Origin: Ferruginibacter sp.
Lineage (GTDB): Bacteria; Bacteroidota; Bacteroidia; Chitinophagales; Chitinophagaceae
NCBI GenBank assembly: GCA_028288705.1
Contig: JAQBNH010000008.1
Span: forward strand, 186,001 to 250,000
DNA length: 64,000 bases
Direction: 5' to 3'
Shown here piece by piece: positions 39,638-49,817 of this stretch. Each line of letters starts with the position of its first letter. Within the stretch, counting starts at the first letter, position 1. A program made the position numbers and the translations under genes. A model generated the notes under the pieces. That model saw only the letters and a program-made list of their open reading frames with translations, did no database searches and was not told the DNA's origin.

Positions 39638-39659
39638 CAACAGCTAACTCATTTTTTTT
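39631..39659 (+). terminator. rho-independent terminator overlapping the fabD stop codon
   Basis: GAGTTAGC and GCTAACTC form a perfect eight-pair stem with an AACA loop, followed by A and eight T. The left arm includes the last codons and TAG stop of fabD, an economical arrangement. Confidence 0.9.
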
Positions 39660-42498
39660 ATCGTATAATAGATGTTGATCCTTTTCTCTGGATAACATTC
39701 CCGCGGTAATCTACGGCTTCAGCCAGCCATATAAACGTGCCGGTATTTTGTTCTTTGCCTTTGTACTTTCCATCCCAGCCTTTGTTAAAATCAGCAGTAG
39801 CAAAGATCAATTCACCGTACCTGTTATAAATGCGGAAATAATGATATTCCTTCATGCCGATGGCAATCGCGCGCAACAGATCATTTCGGCCATCACTATT
39901 AGGCGTAAACGCAGTAGGAACATAAATGTCCGGCCCTTTATACACTTTGATATTGATCGTATCACTGCCTTCACAATTTAATGGCGTACGTCCGGTTACG
40001 ACATATTGTATATCGCGATCCAATGTTGTCACCGGCATTGCAATGTTCGGATCATTTAATCCATAAACAGGACTCCAGGTATATGAAGTAACGCCACTAT
40101 TTCCCAATTCTGTCGCGCGCAATTGCAAAGGCTGATTAATAGCAACGATCGTATCGCGGCCCGCTGATATCCGGACAGCCGGGGTAACCTTTATATTCAC
40201 TGTGTCAGGGATAAGTGATTTGCAACCGTTTGCATCCGTAACGTGTAAATAATAAGTTGTGTTAACAACCGGCCTGATAACAAAAGGTTCCTGGTTATTA
40301 GCGCTGCTTAAATAAGTTGAAGGTGTCCATGAGAAAGCAACACCGCCGCTACCCGATATTCTTGTTGTGCCACCAAAACAAATTTCACCATCGGCACCGG
40401 CATTTGCAATGGGTGCAGGTAACACAGTTACCGTTACAGAATCTTTTCTGAAACACACACCGGTTGTTGCGGTCACATAATATTTCGTTGTTACACGCGG
40501 AGAGGCAACAGGATTAAAAATATTGCTGTTGCTTAAGGTTGCAGCGGGCGTCCATTGATAACTATCTGCGTTCGATTGGATACGCAGCGTATCTGATTTA
40601 CTGTCGCAGATTGGGGGATTGTTTATTGCAGCTAATGTAACTGTATTGATAAAAGTGAGTGTTTGCTGTTTAGTTGTTACGCAATTATTGGCATCTTTTA
40701 CATAGAGCGTATAGGATCCTGTTCCGGCGTTGAAAAAATTGACTGTCTGATAGGTTGTTCCGTTAATAGAATAACTATATGGGGGCTTACCACCGCTGGC
40801 ATTTACCGTTATGCTGCCGTCTGTTCCGCCCGTACAGGAAGGCTGAACGGGAACAAGGTCTGAGAGCAAAGTGGGATAAGCCTGATCCAGTGTTACAGCA
40901 ATACTATCCACGCAACCCGAAGCATCCCGGATCTTAATCACGTGGATTCCTACGGGAAGATTATTAAAATTGCTATCCGGCTGGTAAGGTTGATTCCCAA
41001 TGGAGAATTCGAGCGGTGCCTGCCATTCATGACCGGCTAAAAGCCTAATCTGCCCTGTTGAAGAACCTGCGCAATTAATATCTGTTACAGAGCCCAGTTC
41101 CAAGTCTTTCCATTTTACGTTGATCGAATCGCGGGCATGACAAGTGCCTTCCACCGCCGTGCAATAATACTTTGTAAAATTATTTACCGGTGTCACGATG
41201 GGTGTTCGCGTATTCCCGGATGATAAAGTTGGATCAGTATCCCATGTATATGTTGAAAATCCTGTCGTGGCCATTAATTGTTTGCCCGAGTTGCGGCAGA
41301 TGAATGCCGTATCAGGATGCATGCCCGGCGATAGTTGCAGAATGTCATAATCCCTGATCTGGATGATCGTGCTGTCTGTAGGAATTGCAGCTGCACATGG
41401 AGCCACCGTGTAAATTTTTAAATATTCAATGCCTTCCGGAAGGTTATCGATGAGTGGAACGATGCTTAAGAATACTTCATCCTGGCCGGCAGGGATTGTT
41501 ATGGAAGCTGGCAACGTTTGCACATCTACCGTGTTCAAAGCTGATCCTCCATAATTGAAATAAATTGTCTGCGGAGCAGTAGCAGCCGAAGTCCTTTTTA
41601 TTTTGACAGAACCCGTTGCACAACCTTCTACCAGGTAACTCATACCCGAAGCATCTGTTTGCGTGAGATTGGTCAGCTGAACGGAGTTTGATGTCAGGCT
41701 CCTTGCCTCAAGAAAAACACCGCTGTCATAAGCCCCATCACCCACATCGGCGATCACGAGTTTCATATGGTAAACCTGGCAGGGCTGTACTCTTTCCAAT
41801 GCCGTTAAAACCACGGTATGCCCGTTGTGAGTGAGAAACGTGTTGCCCAGATTGCTTACGTAATAAGATGGGTTATTGATGCAATTGTTGGTGAAAACAA
41901 TATTGTTTACGTTACGGATAGATACGGGCGTATTGGTTCCGGGCACGAGCGCAATATTTCGCAGGCCGGTGATACCAGGCCCGGAAATGAAAAAGGCGAA
42001 GGCATCGTTATAATCACAAACAAATGCTGAAGTATATTCTTCCGAACTCATCACGTATCGAAATTTGATACTATCGCCTAATGGTACAAAATCAAATTCA
42101 AGTATCGTGGCATCATGCGTATTTGCTGAATCTTCGCCGATAGAATGGGCAAGGTCCCAATCGCCCGGACCGTGATTAACCGGCACCTGGTCCAACGTAG
42201 CGGTAGATGTTTGCGGGCCGTCCAATCCATAACTGGTACCCTGCGTTTTTGCGCGGCCGTTAGTCAGCACGATGCCGCTATCAATACCAATATTAGTTCC
42301 GCCGGCATTTGTGAAGAATCCCGTTGCCCGGCTGTCTGCCCTCAACACCGCATTACTGATTGTAACCCCGTCGCCCACAAGCCGCTGCGCCAGGACCTGG
42401 GCTGTACTTTGCGAAACAATATTCAACTGCGCGCTGGCAATAGTTGCGACGAGTAAAAAAAATGCACTAAAAAAAAACCGGGTAAAAATTGACGGCAT
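39658..42498 (-). CDS. choice-of-anchor L domain protein with SprB-like repeats and T9SS type B sorting domain
   Basis: 946 residues, predicted cell-surface or secreted protein. Start at 42498 gives a signal peptide (MPSIFTRFFFSAFFLLVATIASAQ). Then a choice-of-anchor L domain (about 30-270, with MSSEEYTSAFVCDYNDAFAFFISGPG), a Calx-beta-like stretch, two SprB-like repeats (SGGKPPYSYSINGTTYQ; GLYV/TGSYTLYVKDANNCV), three Ig-like units each containing a W-T/S-P motif, and the C-terminal gliding-motility-associated domain (VPTAFTPNSDGRNDLL to GSTSIIR). Such type B domains direct export by the type IX system. Role is probably adhesion, by analogy. Confidence 0.87.
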   Translation of the reverse strand: MPSIFTRFFFSAFFLLVATIASAQLNIVSQSTAQVLAQRLVGDGVTISNAVLRADSRATGFFTNAGGTNIGIDSGIVLTNGRAKTQGTSYGLDGPQTSTATLDQVPVNHGPGDWDLAHSIGEDSANTHDATILEFDFVPLGDSIKFRYVMSSEEYTSAFVCDYNDAFAFFISGPGITGLRNIALVPGTNTPVSIRNVNNIVFTNNCINNPSYYVSNLGNTFLTHNGHTVVLTALERVQPCQVYHMKLVIADVGDGAYDSGVFLEARSLTSNSVQLTNLTQTDASGMSYLVEGCATGSVKIKRTSAATAPQTIYFNYGGSALNTVDVQTLPASITIPAGQDEVFLSIVPLIDNLPEGIEYLKIYTVAPCAAAIPTDSTIIQIRDYDILQLSPGMHPDTAFICRNSGKQLMATTGFSTYTWDTDPTLSSGNTRTPIVTPVNNFTKYYCTAVEGTCHARDSINVKWKDLELGSVTDINCAGSSTGQIRLLAGHEWQAPLEFSIGNQPYQPDSNFNNLPVGIHVIKIRDASGCVDSIAVTLDQAYPTLLSDLVPVQPSCTGGTDGSITVNASGGKPPYSYSINGTTYQTVNFFNAGTGSYTLYVKDANNCVTTKQQTLTFINTVTLAAINNPPICDSKSDTLRIQSNADSYQWTPAATLSNSNIFNPVASPRVTTKYYVTATTGVCFRKDSVTVTVLPAPIANAGADGEICFGGTTRISGSGGVAFSWTPSTYLSSANNQEPFVIRPVVNTTYYLHVTDANGCKSLIPDTVNIKVTPAVRISAGRDTIVAINQPLQLRATELGNSGVTSYTWSPVYGLNDPNIAMPVTTLDRDIQYVVTGRTPLNCEGSDTINIKVYKGPDIYVPTAFTPNSDGRNDLLRAIAIGMKEYHYFRIYNRYGELIFATADFNKGWDGKYKGKEQNTGTFIWLAEAVDYRGNVIQRKGSTSIIR

Positions 42499-42540
42499 CG
42501 GGCTTGTTTTGGGATTACCAAGATAACATAAATGCGCAAA

Positions 42541-42569
42541 AAAAAGTCCCGGCATTACCGGGACTTTTT
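42541..42569 (-). terminator. rho-independent terminator of mdh
   Basis: AAAAAGTCCCGG and CCGGGACTTTTT form a perfect 12-pair stem with a CATTA loop; on the minus strand a T run follows. It lies 18 bases after the mdh stop and before the start of the next minus-strand gene. Confidence 0.9.
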
Positions 42570-44989: not shown

Positions 44990-45553
44990 ATGGCAACAAC
45001 TGCAGACATGCGTTCCGGGCTGATCATCAAAGTAGATGGCAGCTTATACACCGTAATTGAATTCGGGCAAAATAAAACGGCACGTGCCGCTGCGAAAGTC
45101 TGGGCTAAACTCAAAGGCGTGGATAATACCCGTACTATTGAAGTTACCTGGAACAGTGGCGAAACAATCTTCCCGGTTCGGGTAGAAAAAAAACCTTACC
45201 AGTATTTATACAAAGATGATACAGGCTATAGTTTTATGGATACAGAAACCTTTGAGCAAATTACCGTTCCTGAAACAATGGTTGATGCTCCAAAGTTTTT
45301 AAAAGACGGCCAGGAAGTAACTGTTGCGATCAATGGTGAAACCGATCAGCCGATGGCAGTTGAACTTCCAGACAAAATTGTTTTGATGGTTACTTACAGC
45401 GAACCGGGGATGAAAGGCGATACGGCAACGAAGACCCTGAAACCTGCTACTGTTGAAACAGGCGCCACTGTAAACGTCCCTCTATTTGTAAATGAAGGCG
45501 AAATGATCCGCGTAAACACCAAAACCGGTGAATATGTTGAACGAGTGAAATAA
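44990..45553 (+). CDS. efp: translation elongation factor P with atypical tip loop
   Basis: 187-residue EF-P, which enters ribosomes stalled at proline runs and promotes peptide bond formation. The three domains are present; the C-terminal signature is TYSEPGMKGDTATKTLKPATVETGA (split over 143-167) and the KPYQYLYKDD linker is typical. The KOW-domain tip loop reads NKTARAAAKVWAKLK, where most EF-Ps have KPG(K/R)G: the PG and following G are lost, while Arg32 stays at the position that carries the modified residue. Start MATTADMRSG is chosen from the family and the -7 box. Confidence 0.93.
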   Translation: MATTADMRSGLIIKVDGSLYTVIEFGQNKTARAAAKVWAKLKGVDNTRTIEVTWNSGETIFPVRVEKKPYQYLYKDDTGYSFMDTETFEQITVPETMVDAPKFLKDGQEVTVAINGETDQPMAVELPDKIVLMVTYSEPGMKGDTATKTLKPATVETGATVNVPLFVNEGEMIRVNTKTGEYVERVK

Positions 45554-45774: not shown

Positions 45775-46251
45775 ATGGACATTAAGCAAATCCAGGAACT
45801 TGTAAAACTCATCAACAAGACTTCCATCGGTGAAATAACCATTGAAGAAGATGGAACGAAGATCACCATCAAACAAAAAAAAGACCCTTCTCAAAAAATA
45901 TATACTCAGAATAGCCCAGCATCTTTTGCCCCCCAGCAAACTGCAGCACAGCCTGCTCCGGCCGCACCGCAAGCTCCGGCATCAGCACCTGCAGCGCCAA
46001 AACAAGACAACCTTATTACAATTAAAAGCCCGATGATCGGTACGTTTTACCGCCAGGCCGGCCCGGGTAAACCGATTTTTGTAAATGTGGGCGACGAAGT
46101 GGCTCCTGGTAAAGTGGTTTGCATCATCGAAGCGATGAAATTGTTCAACGAAATCGAAAGCGAAGTAAAAGGTAAGATCGTGAAAGTGTTGGTGGAAGAC
46201 GCCAGCCCGGTAGAATACGACCAGCCTTTATTCCTGGTAGATCCGGCATAA
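45775..46251 (+). CDS. accB: acetyl-CoA carboxylase biotin carboxyl carrier protein
   Basis: 158 residues. An N-terminal acidic-basic domain, an Ala/Pro-rich linker (about 55-77), and the C-terminal biotinyl domain with the biotin-accepting K122 in IIEAMKLFNEIE. The linker is the flexible arm typical of AccB. accC lies 65 bases downstream, the standard AccB-AccC pair that carries out the first half of malonyl-CoA synthesis. Supplies the substrate of FabD, encoded 6 kb away. Confidence 0.95.
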   Translation: MDIKQIQELVKLINKTSIGEITIEEDGTKITIKQKKDPSQKIYTQNSPASFAPQQTAAQPAPAAPQAPASAPAAPKQDNLITIKSPMIGTFYRQAGPGKPIFVNVGDEVAPGKVVCIIEAMKLFNEIESEVKGKIVKVLVEDASPVEYDQPLFLVDPA

Positions 46252-46316: not shown

Positions 46317-47654
46317 GTGTTCAAAAAAATATTAATTGCCAACCGCGGCGAGATCGCATTGCGCGTCATCCGCACCTGCCGTGAAATGGGTATCAAAACT
46401 GTTGCGGTTTATTCCACGGCAGATAAAGACAGCCTGCATGTAAAATTTGCTGACGAAGCGGTTTGCATCGGGAAGCCAGCCAGCGCCGATAGTTATTTAA
46501 ATATGGCGCATATTATGGCTGCTGCCGAAATTACCAATGCGGATGCAATTCATCCTGGTTATGGTTTTCTAGCAGAAAATGCAAAATTTGCTAAGATCTG
46601 TGCTGATCACGGTATCAAGTTCATCGGCCCCACGCCGGAAATGATCAATGCCATGGGTGATAAGGTTACAGCGAAGGAAACGATGATCAAGGCAGGCGTT
46701 CCGGTAGTTCCAGGTGTAGAAGGTTTGTTGCAGAGTGCAGAACATGCTAAAAAAGCGGCGCTAGAAATTGGGTACCCTGTTATCCTGAAAGCTACGGCCG
46801 GCGGTGGTGGTAAAGGTATGCGCGTGGTATGGGAGGAAAGTGAACTTGAGAGAAATTACGACAATGCTAAAACAGAAGCTGCGGCTTCATTTAAGAATGA
46901 TGGTATCTACATGGAAAAATTTGTAGAAGAGCCAAGGCATATTGAAATACAGATCGCGGGTGATCAATACGGTAATGTTTGCCATTTGAGCGAACGTGAT
47001 TGTTCCATCCAGCGCCGTCACCAGAAATTAGTGGAAGAATCTCCTTCTCCTTTTATGACGGATGAATTGCGTGAACGCATGGGTAACGCAGCTATCAAAG
47101 CGGCGCAGGCAATCAATTATGAAAGCGTTGGTACCATTGAGTTCCTGGTAGATAAGCACCGCAATTTCTATTTTATGGAAATGAATACGAGGATCCAGGT
47201 AGAACATTGCGTTACTGAAGAAGTGATCAACTACGATCTGATCAAAGAACAGATTAAGATCGCGATGGGGGAAAAAATTATCGGGAAAGCTTATTACCCC
47301 CAAATGCATGCGATCGAATGCCGTATCAACGCAGAAGATCCATACAACGATTTCCGTCCTTCTCCGGGCAAGATCACCGTGCTGCATCAGCCCGGCGGCC
47401 ATGGTGTTCGTGTAGATAGCCATGTGTATGCCGGATACGTTATTCCACCCTATTACGACAGCATGATCGGGAAACTGATCGCTGTTGCCCAAACGCGTGA
47501 TGAGGCCATCAATACAATGAGCCGTGCACTCAGCGAATATGTGATCGAAGGCGTTAAAACCACGATCCCTTTTCACCAGCAACTCATGCGCGATGAAAAT
47601 TTCCGCTCAGGAAATTTCACCACCAAATTTTTAGAATCGTTTACGATGCAATAA
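46317..47654 (+). CDS. accC: acetyl-CoA carboxylase biotin carboxylase subunit
   Basis: 445-residue ATP-grasp enzyme that carboxylates biotin on AccB. It has the N-terminal [18 protein letters not shown], the ATP-binding glycine loop [12 protein letters not shown], the [23 protein letters not shown] segment and the MNTRIQVEH active-site motif. The start codon is GTG, giving [12 protein letters not shown], the expected beginning; no ATG is available nearby. Shares a transcript with accB. Confidence 0.95.
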
Positions 47655-47688: not shown

Positions 47689-47747
47689 AAGCTATTTTTT
47701 TGCACAGCCTGCATCCCGCAGATGCTGCCGAGAAAGTTTTTCAGCCA

Positions 47748-49817
47748 ATGAATATTTCTACAGATATTTTATTAAAAGCATACCGTCATATGAGCACTGC
47801 CCGTGCCATGGCAGATATTTACGAAGCCAATCGTTCCATCTGTAAGTATGTTCACAGCACATCCCGTGGGCATGAAGCGATTCAACTGGCAACCGCTTAT
47901 CAACTGCTGCCCTGCGATTATGTAAGTCCGTACTACCGCGATGAAAGCATTATGCTCGGCCTGGGCTTTGAACCACAACAACTCATGATGCAATTGCTGG
48001 CTAAAGCCGGCGATATGTTTACGGGTGGACGGGAATATTACAATCATCCAAATTATCGTGGACCTGATAAGCCAACGATCATTCATCAAAGCAGCGCGAC
48101 GGGCATGCAGGCCATCCCTACAACTGGTGTGGCACAGGGAATAAAATACCTGGAAAAAATTGCATCGCCTCTATTCAGGAAAGGTGGCAATGCTGAAATG
48201 CCGGTAGTCATTTGTTCACTGGGTGATGCATCCGTTACAGAAGGTGAAGTAAGCGAAGCATTCCAGTTTGCTGCCCTGCATCAGTTGCCCATCATTTTTT
48301 TAGTGCAGGATAACGATTGGGGCATCAGCGTTACTTCTGCCGAAGCGCGTACGTCGAACGCCTATGAATTTATCGAGGGCTTTAAAGGCATTCAGCGAAA
48401 AACCATTAATGGCAGCGATTTCACTGCATCATTTTTGGCGATGCAGGAAATTGTACAGGATGTTCGCGACAACCGCGGCCCATGGCTCCTTCACGCAAAA
48501 GTGCCTTTATTAGGACATCATACCAGTGGCGTACGAAAAGATTTTTACCGCTTCGATGATGAATTCGAAACGCAAAACCAGGATGATCCCGGTCCAAAAC
48601 TTCGCAAGGTTTTACGGGAGGCAGGAATTACAGAGAATGCTATACAGGAAATAGAAAAAGAAACACGAGACCTGGTGGCGTACCATTTTGCGGTAGCCAC
48701 TGCATCTGCCGAACCAGATCCCACGACTGTTTCGGAACATGTGTTTGCAGCACCTGCTGTTACTGAAGAGAAGGGTGAACGTAACCCGGCCGGCAAGGAG
48801 AAAATATTAATGGTAGACGCGGCACTTTTTGCCATCCGCGAATTAATGGAAGATTTTCCTGAAGCTGTATTATACGGCCAGGATGTAGGACGCAGGCTGG
48901 GCGGTGTTTTCCGCGAAGCAGCGACATTAGCCGAACAGTTTGGAGATCACCGCGTTTTTAATACGGCGATCCAGGAAGCATATATAATTGGTTCAACAGT
49001 GGGCATGAGCGCGGTCGGCATAAAGCCAATCGTTGAGGTTCAATTCGCTGATTATATTTACCCGGGCCTGAATCAACTCGTGACAGAAATTTCGAAAAGC
49101 TGTTACCTCAGTTGCGGAAAATTCCCGGTGCAAACACTGATCCGTGTGCCGATTGGCGCTTACGGTGGTGGCGGCCCTTATCATAGCGGCAGCGTTGAAA
49201 GTACATTACTCACGATCAAAGGAATTAAAATTATTTACCCTTCCAATGCCGCGGATATGAAAGGATTGCTGAAAGCCGCCTTCCTCGATCCTAACCCGGT
49301 GGTGATGCTCGAACATAAGGGCTTGTATTGGAGCAAAGTGCCGGGAACTGAGGAAGCAAAAATGACCGAACCTTCGCGCGACTATATGATCCCGTTAGGA
49401 AAAGGAAATATTGTACTGTCGGCTTCGGCTGAACAATTGTCGGATGGTGACACCTGTTGCGTTATCACTTATGGCATGGGCGTTTATTGGGCGAAAGCGG
49501 CAGCAAAGGAGTTCAGCGGGCAAATTGAGATCATCGACTTACGAAGTTTGTTTCCCTTAGATGAAGCACTCGTTTTCTCTACTGTGCAAAAACATGGAAA
49601 ATGTCTGATCCTTACCGAAGAGCAGCAAAACAATTCTTTTGCGGAAGCACTGGCGGGCAGGATATCAAAGGCCTGTTTCAAATATTTGGATGCACCCGTT
49701 GAAGTTTTAGGGGCTTTAAATCTTCCGGCAGTGCCCATGAATATGGTACTGGAGCAGGCGATGCTGCCCAACCCGGAAAAGGTTGCAGCGTTGATAAGCC
49801 AGTTGCTTAACTATTAA
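47748..49817 (+). CDS. 2-oxoacid dehydrogenase E1, fused alpha and beta subunits
   Basis: 689 residues combining both halves of a thiamine diphosphate-dependent E1. Residues about 1-330 are the alpha part, with the TPP motif CSLGDASVTEGEV to QDNDWGIS and the SGVRKDFYRFD region; residues about 360-689 are the beta part (ALFAIRELMEDFPEAVLYGQDV, GAYGGGGPYHSGSVES). A variable linker with acidic residues joins them. Best match in kind is branched-chain 2-oxoacid dehydrogenase, but pyruvate cannot be excluded. E2 and E3 genes are not nearby. Start at ATG 47748; an upstream TTG at 47700 is open but unlikely. Confidence 0.88.
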   Translation: MNISTDILLKAYRHMSTARAMADIYEANRSICKYVHSTSRGHEAIQLATAYQLLPCDYVSPYYRDESIMLGLGFEPQQLMMQLLAKAGDMFTGGREYYNHPNYRGPDKPTIIHQSSATGMQAIPTTGVAQGIKYLEKIASPLFRKGGNAEMPVVICSLGDASVTEGEVSEAFQFAALHQLPIIFLVQDNDWGISVTSAEARTSNAYEFIEGFKGIQRKTINGSDFTASFLAMQEIVQDVRDNRGPWLLHAKVPLLGHHTSGVRKDFYRFDDEFETQNQDDPGPKLRKVLREAGITENAIQEIEKETRDLVAYHFAVATASAEPDPTTVSEHVFAAPAVTEEKGERNPAGKEKILMVDAALFAIRELMEDFPEAVLYGQDVGRRLGGVFREAATLAEQFGDHRVFNTAIQEAYIIGSTVGMSAVGIKPIVEVQFADYIYPGLNQLVTEISKSCYLSCGKFPVQTLIRVPIGAYGGGGPYHSGSVESTLLTIKGIKIIYPSNAADMKGLLKAAFLDPNPVVMLEHKGLYWSKVPGTEEAKMTEPSRDYMIPLGKGNIVLSASAEQLSDGDTCCVITYGMGVYWAKAAAKEFSGQIEIIDLRSLFPLDEALVFSTVQKHGKCLILTEEQQNNSFAEALAGRISKACFKYLDAPVEVLGALNLPAVPMNMVLEQAMLPNPEKVAALISQLLNY

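Follow-up and report, generated by a model that had tools for sequence, protein, structure and literature searches.

A family-wide arginine tip in the elongation factor P of presumed Chitinophagaceae that may act without post-translational modification

Elongation factor P (EF-P) binds beside the P site of ribosomes stalled on prolines. According to excerpts of PMC6544042, the lysine (Lys) and arginine (Arg) types studied need modification for full activity. In E. coli, a single change at position -2, -1 or +1 relative to the tip residue leaves little or no activity; P32S/G and G33A/S variants lost activity in an epmA+ strain, and G35N kept 3.8%. Loss of the glycine before the tip residue inactivates the EF-Ps of both E. 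coli and P. putida. For the latter, the G31A variant was rhamnosylated in vitro at <1% of the wild-type rate and G31 was called crucial for function, whereas in vivo, with EarP overproduced, all variants except those changed at R32 were fully modified. Furthermore, P. putida S30P was nearly inactive, with 39% of activity kept by S30A and 96% by S30G, and the unmodified Arg-type EF-Ps of P. putida and S. oneidensis were found to inhibit polyproline translation in an E. coli reporter (all from the excerpts of PMC6544042). Unmodified EF-P of N. meningitidis is described in excerpts of PMC4739656 as working weakly in N. meningitidis itself and not at all on E. coli ribosomes, and its rhamnosylated peptide is given as GGRSSAK; a table legend of the same paper lists Borrelia burgdorferi as having Arg32 without EarP.

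Tips working without modification have also been described. As stated in excerpts of PMC11611912, the loop of EfpL reads SPTARGAAT and is two residues longer, and the authors credit loop length. R33 of this protein was unmodified by mass spectrometry and needed, the R33K variant gave no growth rescue, and docking stacked R33 on the CCA end. Moreover, an actinobacterial Lys EF-P is reported there to work unmodified thanks to a stiffer loop. A search of a limited set of papers returned none joining EF-P with Chitinophagaceae or Bacteroidetes; earlier notice is possible.

Within the window, i.e., the whole stretch of 64,000 nucleotides that was analyzed, an EF-P gene with the following features was located.

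44990..45553, plus strand: efp, elongation factor P of 187 aa, translated without internal stops
45059..45118, plus strand: putatively rebuilt tip hairpin, codons 24-43, EFGQNKTARAAAKVWAKLKG, holding all 9 fixed differences between the family and the Lys type (residues 28-43)
45074..45097, plus strand: KTARAAAK, codons 29-36, target of the DNA pattern with which 395 Bacteroidota genomes were scanned
45083-45085, plus strand: codon of Arg32, from the translation

The window protein scored 209 bits against the EF-P model NCBIfam TIGR00038 (cut-off 185.8) and exceeded the cut-offs of all three Pfam EF-P domains (PF08207, PF01132 and PF09285); at curated cut-offs it possesses the KOW-like N domain and the two OB domains of the EF-P fold. 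Translation and model scores agree with the original prediction, which had placed an EF-P, normal outside the loop, with Arg at residue 32 at these coordinates. The tip reads EFGQNKTARAAAKVWAKL, and in an alignment without gaps KTARAAAKVW of the window EF-P corresponds to KPGKGxAFVR of its relatives. Relatives from the same order share the spacing of the hairpin (EFQHVKPGKGxAFVRTKL), and Arg32 aligns with their Lys. A displaced or non-homologous loop, one of two findings that had been named in advance as overturning the prediction, is ruled out by this ungapped alignment. The other, a second canonical efp, was rejected as an explanation as well, a single EF-P match, the window efp, being present in the organism's own genome (3.72 Mb, 99.4% complete). 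Relative to the tip residue, the protein carries Ala at -1, a change tested in P. putida; its residue at -2 is Thr, absent from the set of variants tested there. The PG(K/R)G motif, the loss of which had drawn attention to the gene, is not that of Arg-type EF-Ps, only 2.33% of which have Pro at -2 (excerpts of PMC6544042). What is unusual here is that Gly is missing on both sides of the tip residue (-1 and +1) and that the strand is altered as well (K36, W38).

The closest relatives by name were Ferruginibacter and other Chitinophagaceae (the best 80 of a longer list of matches), on which basis the family of the window organism, coded f1, is taken to be Chitinophagaceae. A survey of the order yielded an EF-P match in 84 of 85 f1 genomes, one apiece. 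The loop was read in 50 of those 84 genomes and in the 80 named loci, amounting to 130 loci, in which the own genome enters a single time and some species may be represented by both a named locus and a survey genome. KTAR was present in 130/130 loci (121 KTARAAAK, 6 KTARSAAK and 3 KTARAGAK), and intermediate or reverted tips were not seen among them. Since the 130 KTAR readings derive from 110 distinct DNA 24-mers encoding just 3 tip peptides, chance or sequencing error is excluded; the ratio of spellings to peptides also points to purifying selection on the tip, which is counted in favor of the interpretation given below.

Among the EF-Ps read from other families, this tip was not encountered. 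The DNA pattern KTARx[AG]AK was matched in 14/14 f1 genomes among the 395 Bacteroidota genomes scanned, each time within EF-P, and in 8/381 non-f1 genomes at 9 places, none of which lies in an EF-P. Among 81 non-f1 Bacteroidota EF-Ps (80 distinct), which were picked for high rank or family spread and are not a random sample, 65 PGK, 8 PGN, 4 VGR and 3 PAR tips were read, with TAR in 0/80 distinct sequences. Alignment across Bacteroidota, as suggested with the original prediction, confined the TAR tip to f1 among the families read; judged from these sequences, it is a trait of the whole family and not a single oddity.

Several further observations were made during this survey. No EF-P was detected by P0001 or PF09285 in G263 (f1), G087 (f19) and G050 (f4), listed as 93-100% complete, which may reflect a gap or real loss. 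Three MAG records titled Streptomyces griseus or Williamsia (L093, L097, L141) carry the f1 EF-P type and are probably mislabelled or mixed bins. EF-Ps with an Asn tip (RTPGNLRAF) occur in f23, f28 and f48 (L223 and L224 in f23; furthermore L221, L222, L225, L227, L228 and L238), and in the f23 genomes G427 and G372 genes for Asn-tip and Lys-tip EF-Ps adjoin each other. G412 has three EF-P matches, and the match of L234 (G325:C1:1389479-1390036) lies within a 712-aa open frame, perhaps a fusion or merely a long frame. Single-protein scans of viral contigs revealed no close viral relatives of EF-P.

In order to locate the changes within the protein, the EF-Ps of f1 (118 distinct sequences) were compared with those of the Lys type in the order (49 distinct sequences), with only sequences of 187 residues admitted and one pair of thresholds applied (a residue was considered fixed at >=95% in f1 and >=85% in the Lys type, and differing). 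Nine fixed differences resulted (Lys type to f1: V28N, P30T, G31A, K32R, G33A, F36K, R38W, T39A and S43G), all of them within residues 28-43, the remaining 171 residues having none. The fact that 15 of the 80 distinct other Bacteroidota EF-Ps read have PGN, VGR or PAR tips would be compatible with ordinary drift to an Arg-type loop that left mechanism and meaning unchanged. However, the confinement of the differences to residues 28-43 and the almost exclusively synonymous variation of the tip argue for a selected switch, and drift is considered very unlikely.

A tree was calculated from 64 EF-P rows, only three of them from outside the phylum, after removal of columns 24-43. In this loop-free tree the 13 f1 rows grouped together (100/100) within the order, and the rows nearest to them were the Lys-type EF-Ps of f3 and f16, with weak support (81/76); the program flagged two long-branch joins, neither of which touched f1. 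The loop-free tree and the focused differences therefore suggest that the rest of the protein was inherited with the order, the tip looking rebuilt. Horizontal gain of the whole efp gene is not supported, as the family sits among its order relatives in this tree. Compared with the KPGKG proteins of the sister families, the rest of the protein is alike and nine hairpin residues are fixed differently.

The tip itself has a counterpart in Thermus thermophilus EF-P (1ueb, tip KLGRGGAKVVAK), which shares the Arg tip, the lack of proline and an AKVxAK strand, but keeps Gly on both sides of Arg, unlike the f1 protein. Over residues 26-43, identity with the window EF-P was highest for Thermus (44%) among the 13 rows printed; the value of 0.06 for EfpL is an effect of a one-column offset. 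In domain I outside the loop, in contrast, the window EF-P is closest to f3 (0.55 and 0.52), with 34% for Thermus (45% in domains II-III) and 0.17 for EfpL, and a recombined tip from Thermus or EfpL is not favored. The loop's likeness to Thermus is explained by convergence, although a short conversion tract would also be compatible. The most parsimonious history of the Bacteroidota tips involves 4 changes between Arg and other residues, but holding all Arg-tip rows together was not rejected (p-AU 0.092); separate origins of these Arg tips are likely on the present alignment. Other Arg tips were seen in f18, namely QVGRGSGKVW (L185, L191, L197; g121), AQVGRGAAHVK (L189; g123) and KPARGAAFVR (L064, L202, L208; g112); the first has K36 and W38 in common with f1 EF-P and the last retains the proline.

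By eye, the f1 tip resembles that of EfpL (YeiP, e.g., of E. coli) in its TAR-[GA]-AA letters and in having Ala and not Gly before the tip Arg. However, MAFFT placed the TAR of EfpL one column off that of f1, i.e., the likeness is visual and is not reproduced by the alignment. The EfpL loop is two residues longer, whereas that of f1 EF-P has the length of a standard Lys-type EF-P and hence falls short of the more than 7 loop residues that, with an Arg tip, characterize EfpL. Moreover, EfpL is a paralog mostly accompanying an EF-P, whereas the window protein is the only EF-P found in its genome. Identity of the window EF-P with EfpL amounts to 29% in domains II-III and 17% in domain I outside the loop, and its scores against the NCBIfam EfpL models are far below the cut-offs (105.7 bits with a cut-off of 216, and 90.8 bits with one of 264.05). 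Membership in EfpL is thus rejected on loop length and model scores, and by sequence f1 EF-P is best described as a variant of EF-P that is EfpL-like in tip letters and stands outside EfpL.

Structure predictions were obtained for two family members. Model 1, representing the window protein, reached a mean pLDDT of 78.8, with block values of 49-74 in domain I, and showed the EF-P fold, with the C. glutamicum EF-P 6s8z (Z 19.7, rmsd 2.1, 182 aligned) as best match, called tied with 1ueb of Thermus (Z 18.8, rmsd 2.8, 177 aligned); EfpL 8s8u ranked lower (Z 16.0, rmsd 4.8, 178 aligned). Unlike f1 EF-P, the C. glutamicum protein has a Lys tip and keeps Pro and Gly (KPGKGP). Model 1 predicts a hairpin with A31-R32 as its turn, whereas model 2, from another family member (mean pLDDT 69.6), turns residues 31-41 into a helix, for the most part at pLDDT <50, domain I being unreliable. 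A rigid or helical tip is not supported, given the disagreement of the two models at this site.

The known modification systems were then compared with the f1 tip and searched for in the genomes. The EpmA type combines a Lys tip with EpmA, whereas the f1 protein has an Arg tip and EpmA exceeded its cut-off in 0/119 genomes, with 2/14 control genomes over the cut-off. The best full-length EpmA matches listed lie in open frames of ~480-630 aa, which we take to be the size of lysyl-tRNA synthetase. The aminopentanol (YmfI) type has Lys at residue 32, as in Bacillus, where f1 has Arg. T30-A31-R32 conforms to the EarP type, i.e., an Arg tip without Pro at -2, and standard loop length is likewise common to f1 and the P. 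putida and N. meningitidis proteins; f1 differs by Ala instead of Gly at -1, and EarP was not found in f1 in a search without positive control. EarP (PF10093) matched 0/119 order genomes, the own genome included, but also 0/14 control genomes, and 0/20 further genomes (6 f1 and 14 f18, the latter including other Arg-tip genomes), again without positive control. The check for earP and epmA proposed with the original prediction accordingly returned neither EarP nor an EpmA over its cut-off in 119 genomes, with the reservation that the EarP control matched 0/14, and EarP absence is suggestive only. EarP would also be a poor partner for f1 EF-P because P. putida G31A was modified at <1% of the rate in vitro and f1 has Ala31; on the other hand, Ala at -1 is no bar to an enzyme, since overproduction of EarP led to full modification of the same variant in vivo (excerpts of PMC6544042).

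Nine window genes were compared with the 80 named f1 loci, of which 45 are full-length. Two downstream neighbors were conserved:

45775..46251, plus strand: accB-like gene, presumably for biotin carboxyl carrier protein; tblastn match in 43/45 full-length named f1 loci
46317..47654, plus strand: accC-like gene, presumably for biotin carboxylase; tblastn match in 43/45 full-length named f1 loci

Further neighbors, which we take to be mdh-like and thioredoxin-like genes, were present in 36 and 33 of the 45 full-length loci, respectively. Elsewhere in the window, a 705-aa frame (47700-49817, plus strand) presumably encodes a 2-oxo acid dehydrogenase E1 whose alpha and beta subunits are fused, and a 965-aa protein (39658-42555, minus strand) is assumed to be secreted and to bear a gliding-type C-terminal end. 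No modifying-enzyme lookalike was found among the nine window genes, as judged within the window against the named f1 loci.

These results bear on the possibility that Arg32 carries a new modification, introduced by a family enzyme unrelated to EarP and EpmA, which would add another, independently evolved route of EF-P activation to beta-lysylation, aminopentanolation and rhamnosylation. The dependence of the studied Lys and Arg types on modification (excerpts of PMC6544042) speaks for it, as do the frozen hairpin, which would be expected if an enzyme must recognize it, the room left by the unsuccessful EarP and EpmA searches, and the Arg-x-x-Ala-Lys spacing shared with the rhamnosylated N. 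meningitidis peptide (excerpts of PMC4739656). However, the compared window genes offered no candidate, the EfpL tip with its similar letters is unmodified (excerpts of PMC11611912), and the B. burgdorferi case implies that Arg32 alone is no sign of a rhamnosylating enzyme (excerpts of PMC4739656). Taken together, a new modification is regarded as possible but rather doubtful. The original prediction had offered either an unmodified rigid loop or an unknown modification; this pair of options stays right, because no second EF-P was found in the genome, the loop is undisplaced and neither EarP nor an EpmA over its cut-off was found in the order genomes, whereas the word rigid is not borne out by the predictions, which disagree at the tip.

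The need for EF-P was evaluated from proline motifs. The PPP motif of ValS (valyl-tRNA synthetase) was present in 12/12 genomes tested, and PPP occurred in 8/367 predicted proteins within 464 kb of the own genome (mechanical gene calls). Ratios of observed Pro-Pro to that expected from each protein's proline content were 0.54 (0.45-0.62) for the own genome, 0.79 (0.67-0.94) for the f1 genome G047 and 0.67 for the 80 named f1 loci, which cover one gene region and are not independent; the Lys-type relative G002, the nearest by EF-P, gave 0.65 (0.53-0.77), and values of 0.89 and 0.87 were obtained for G258 and G173, respectively. Likewise, PPP per 10,000 residues amounted to 0.57 (own), 1.24 (G047), 2.68 (named f1 loci), 0.60 (G002), 1.50 (G258) and 1.88 (G173). 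The tip types cannot be told apart by polyproline content, and reading the Pro-Pro depletion as the mark of a weak EF-P is not supported, given the overlap with Lys-type G002.

A weakened tip with a narrower job for EF-P, in which proline rescue is shared with ABCF ATPases and YebC, or in which altered ribosomes and tRNAs compensate, was considered in this context. ABCF C-terminal domains and YebC were detected in 14/14 genomes (7 f1, 5 Lys-type and 2 other Arg-tip genomes), the f1 genome G263, which has both, is without an EF-P match, and Pro-Pro in the own genome lies below the expectation from composition; all three observations agree with such a role. Nevertheless, the same backups occur in the five Lys-type relatives, the ratio is also low in Lys-type G002 and less so in f1 G047, and the invariance of the tip speaks against decay, which makes a weakened factor improbable.

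Based on these results, we propose with moderate confidence that the window efp encodes the working EF-P of its family and that the tip, rebuilt to an Arg type, most likely acts without post-translational modification. A bare Arg32 in a loop of standard length would steady the CCA end, as proposed for Arg33 of EfpL. Across an alignment of 20 family members, the GDT, Tyr and Arg residues of domain III do not vary; according to excerpts of PMC11611912, they contact the P-site tRNA, 16S rRNA and the E-site codon. The unmodified interpretation is favored because the tip Arg of EfpL is unmodified and its R33K change is without effect (excerpts of PMC11611912). In addition, one EF-P per f1 genome with a match (84), the frozen tip and the retained PPP stall motifs are counted in its favor, as are the negative results for EpmA (0/119), EarP (0/119 and 0/20, no positive control) and modifying-enzyme lookalikes among the nine window genes. 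Counted against it are the longer EfpL loop with its TAR one column off that of f1, and the inactivity of E. coli P32S/G and G33A/S (excerpts of PMC6544042). A bare Arg is not sufficient in every loop, since the unmodified EF-Ps of P. putida and S. oneidensis inhibit and that of N. meningitidis is weak (excerpts of PMC6544042 and PMC4739656).

EF-P tips are highly conserved, and this family changed positions -2, -1 and +1 as well as the tip residue and then kept the result. A modification-free EF-P, if true, would be useful for cell-free protein synthesis. Moreover, f1 EF-P represents a natural experiment on tip requirements, asking if EF-P has to be modified in the first place and how Arg can replace Lys.
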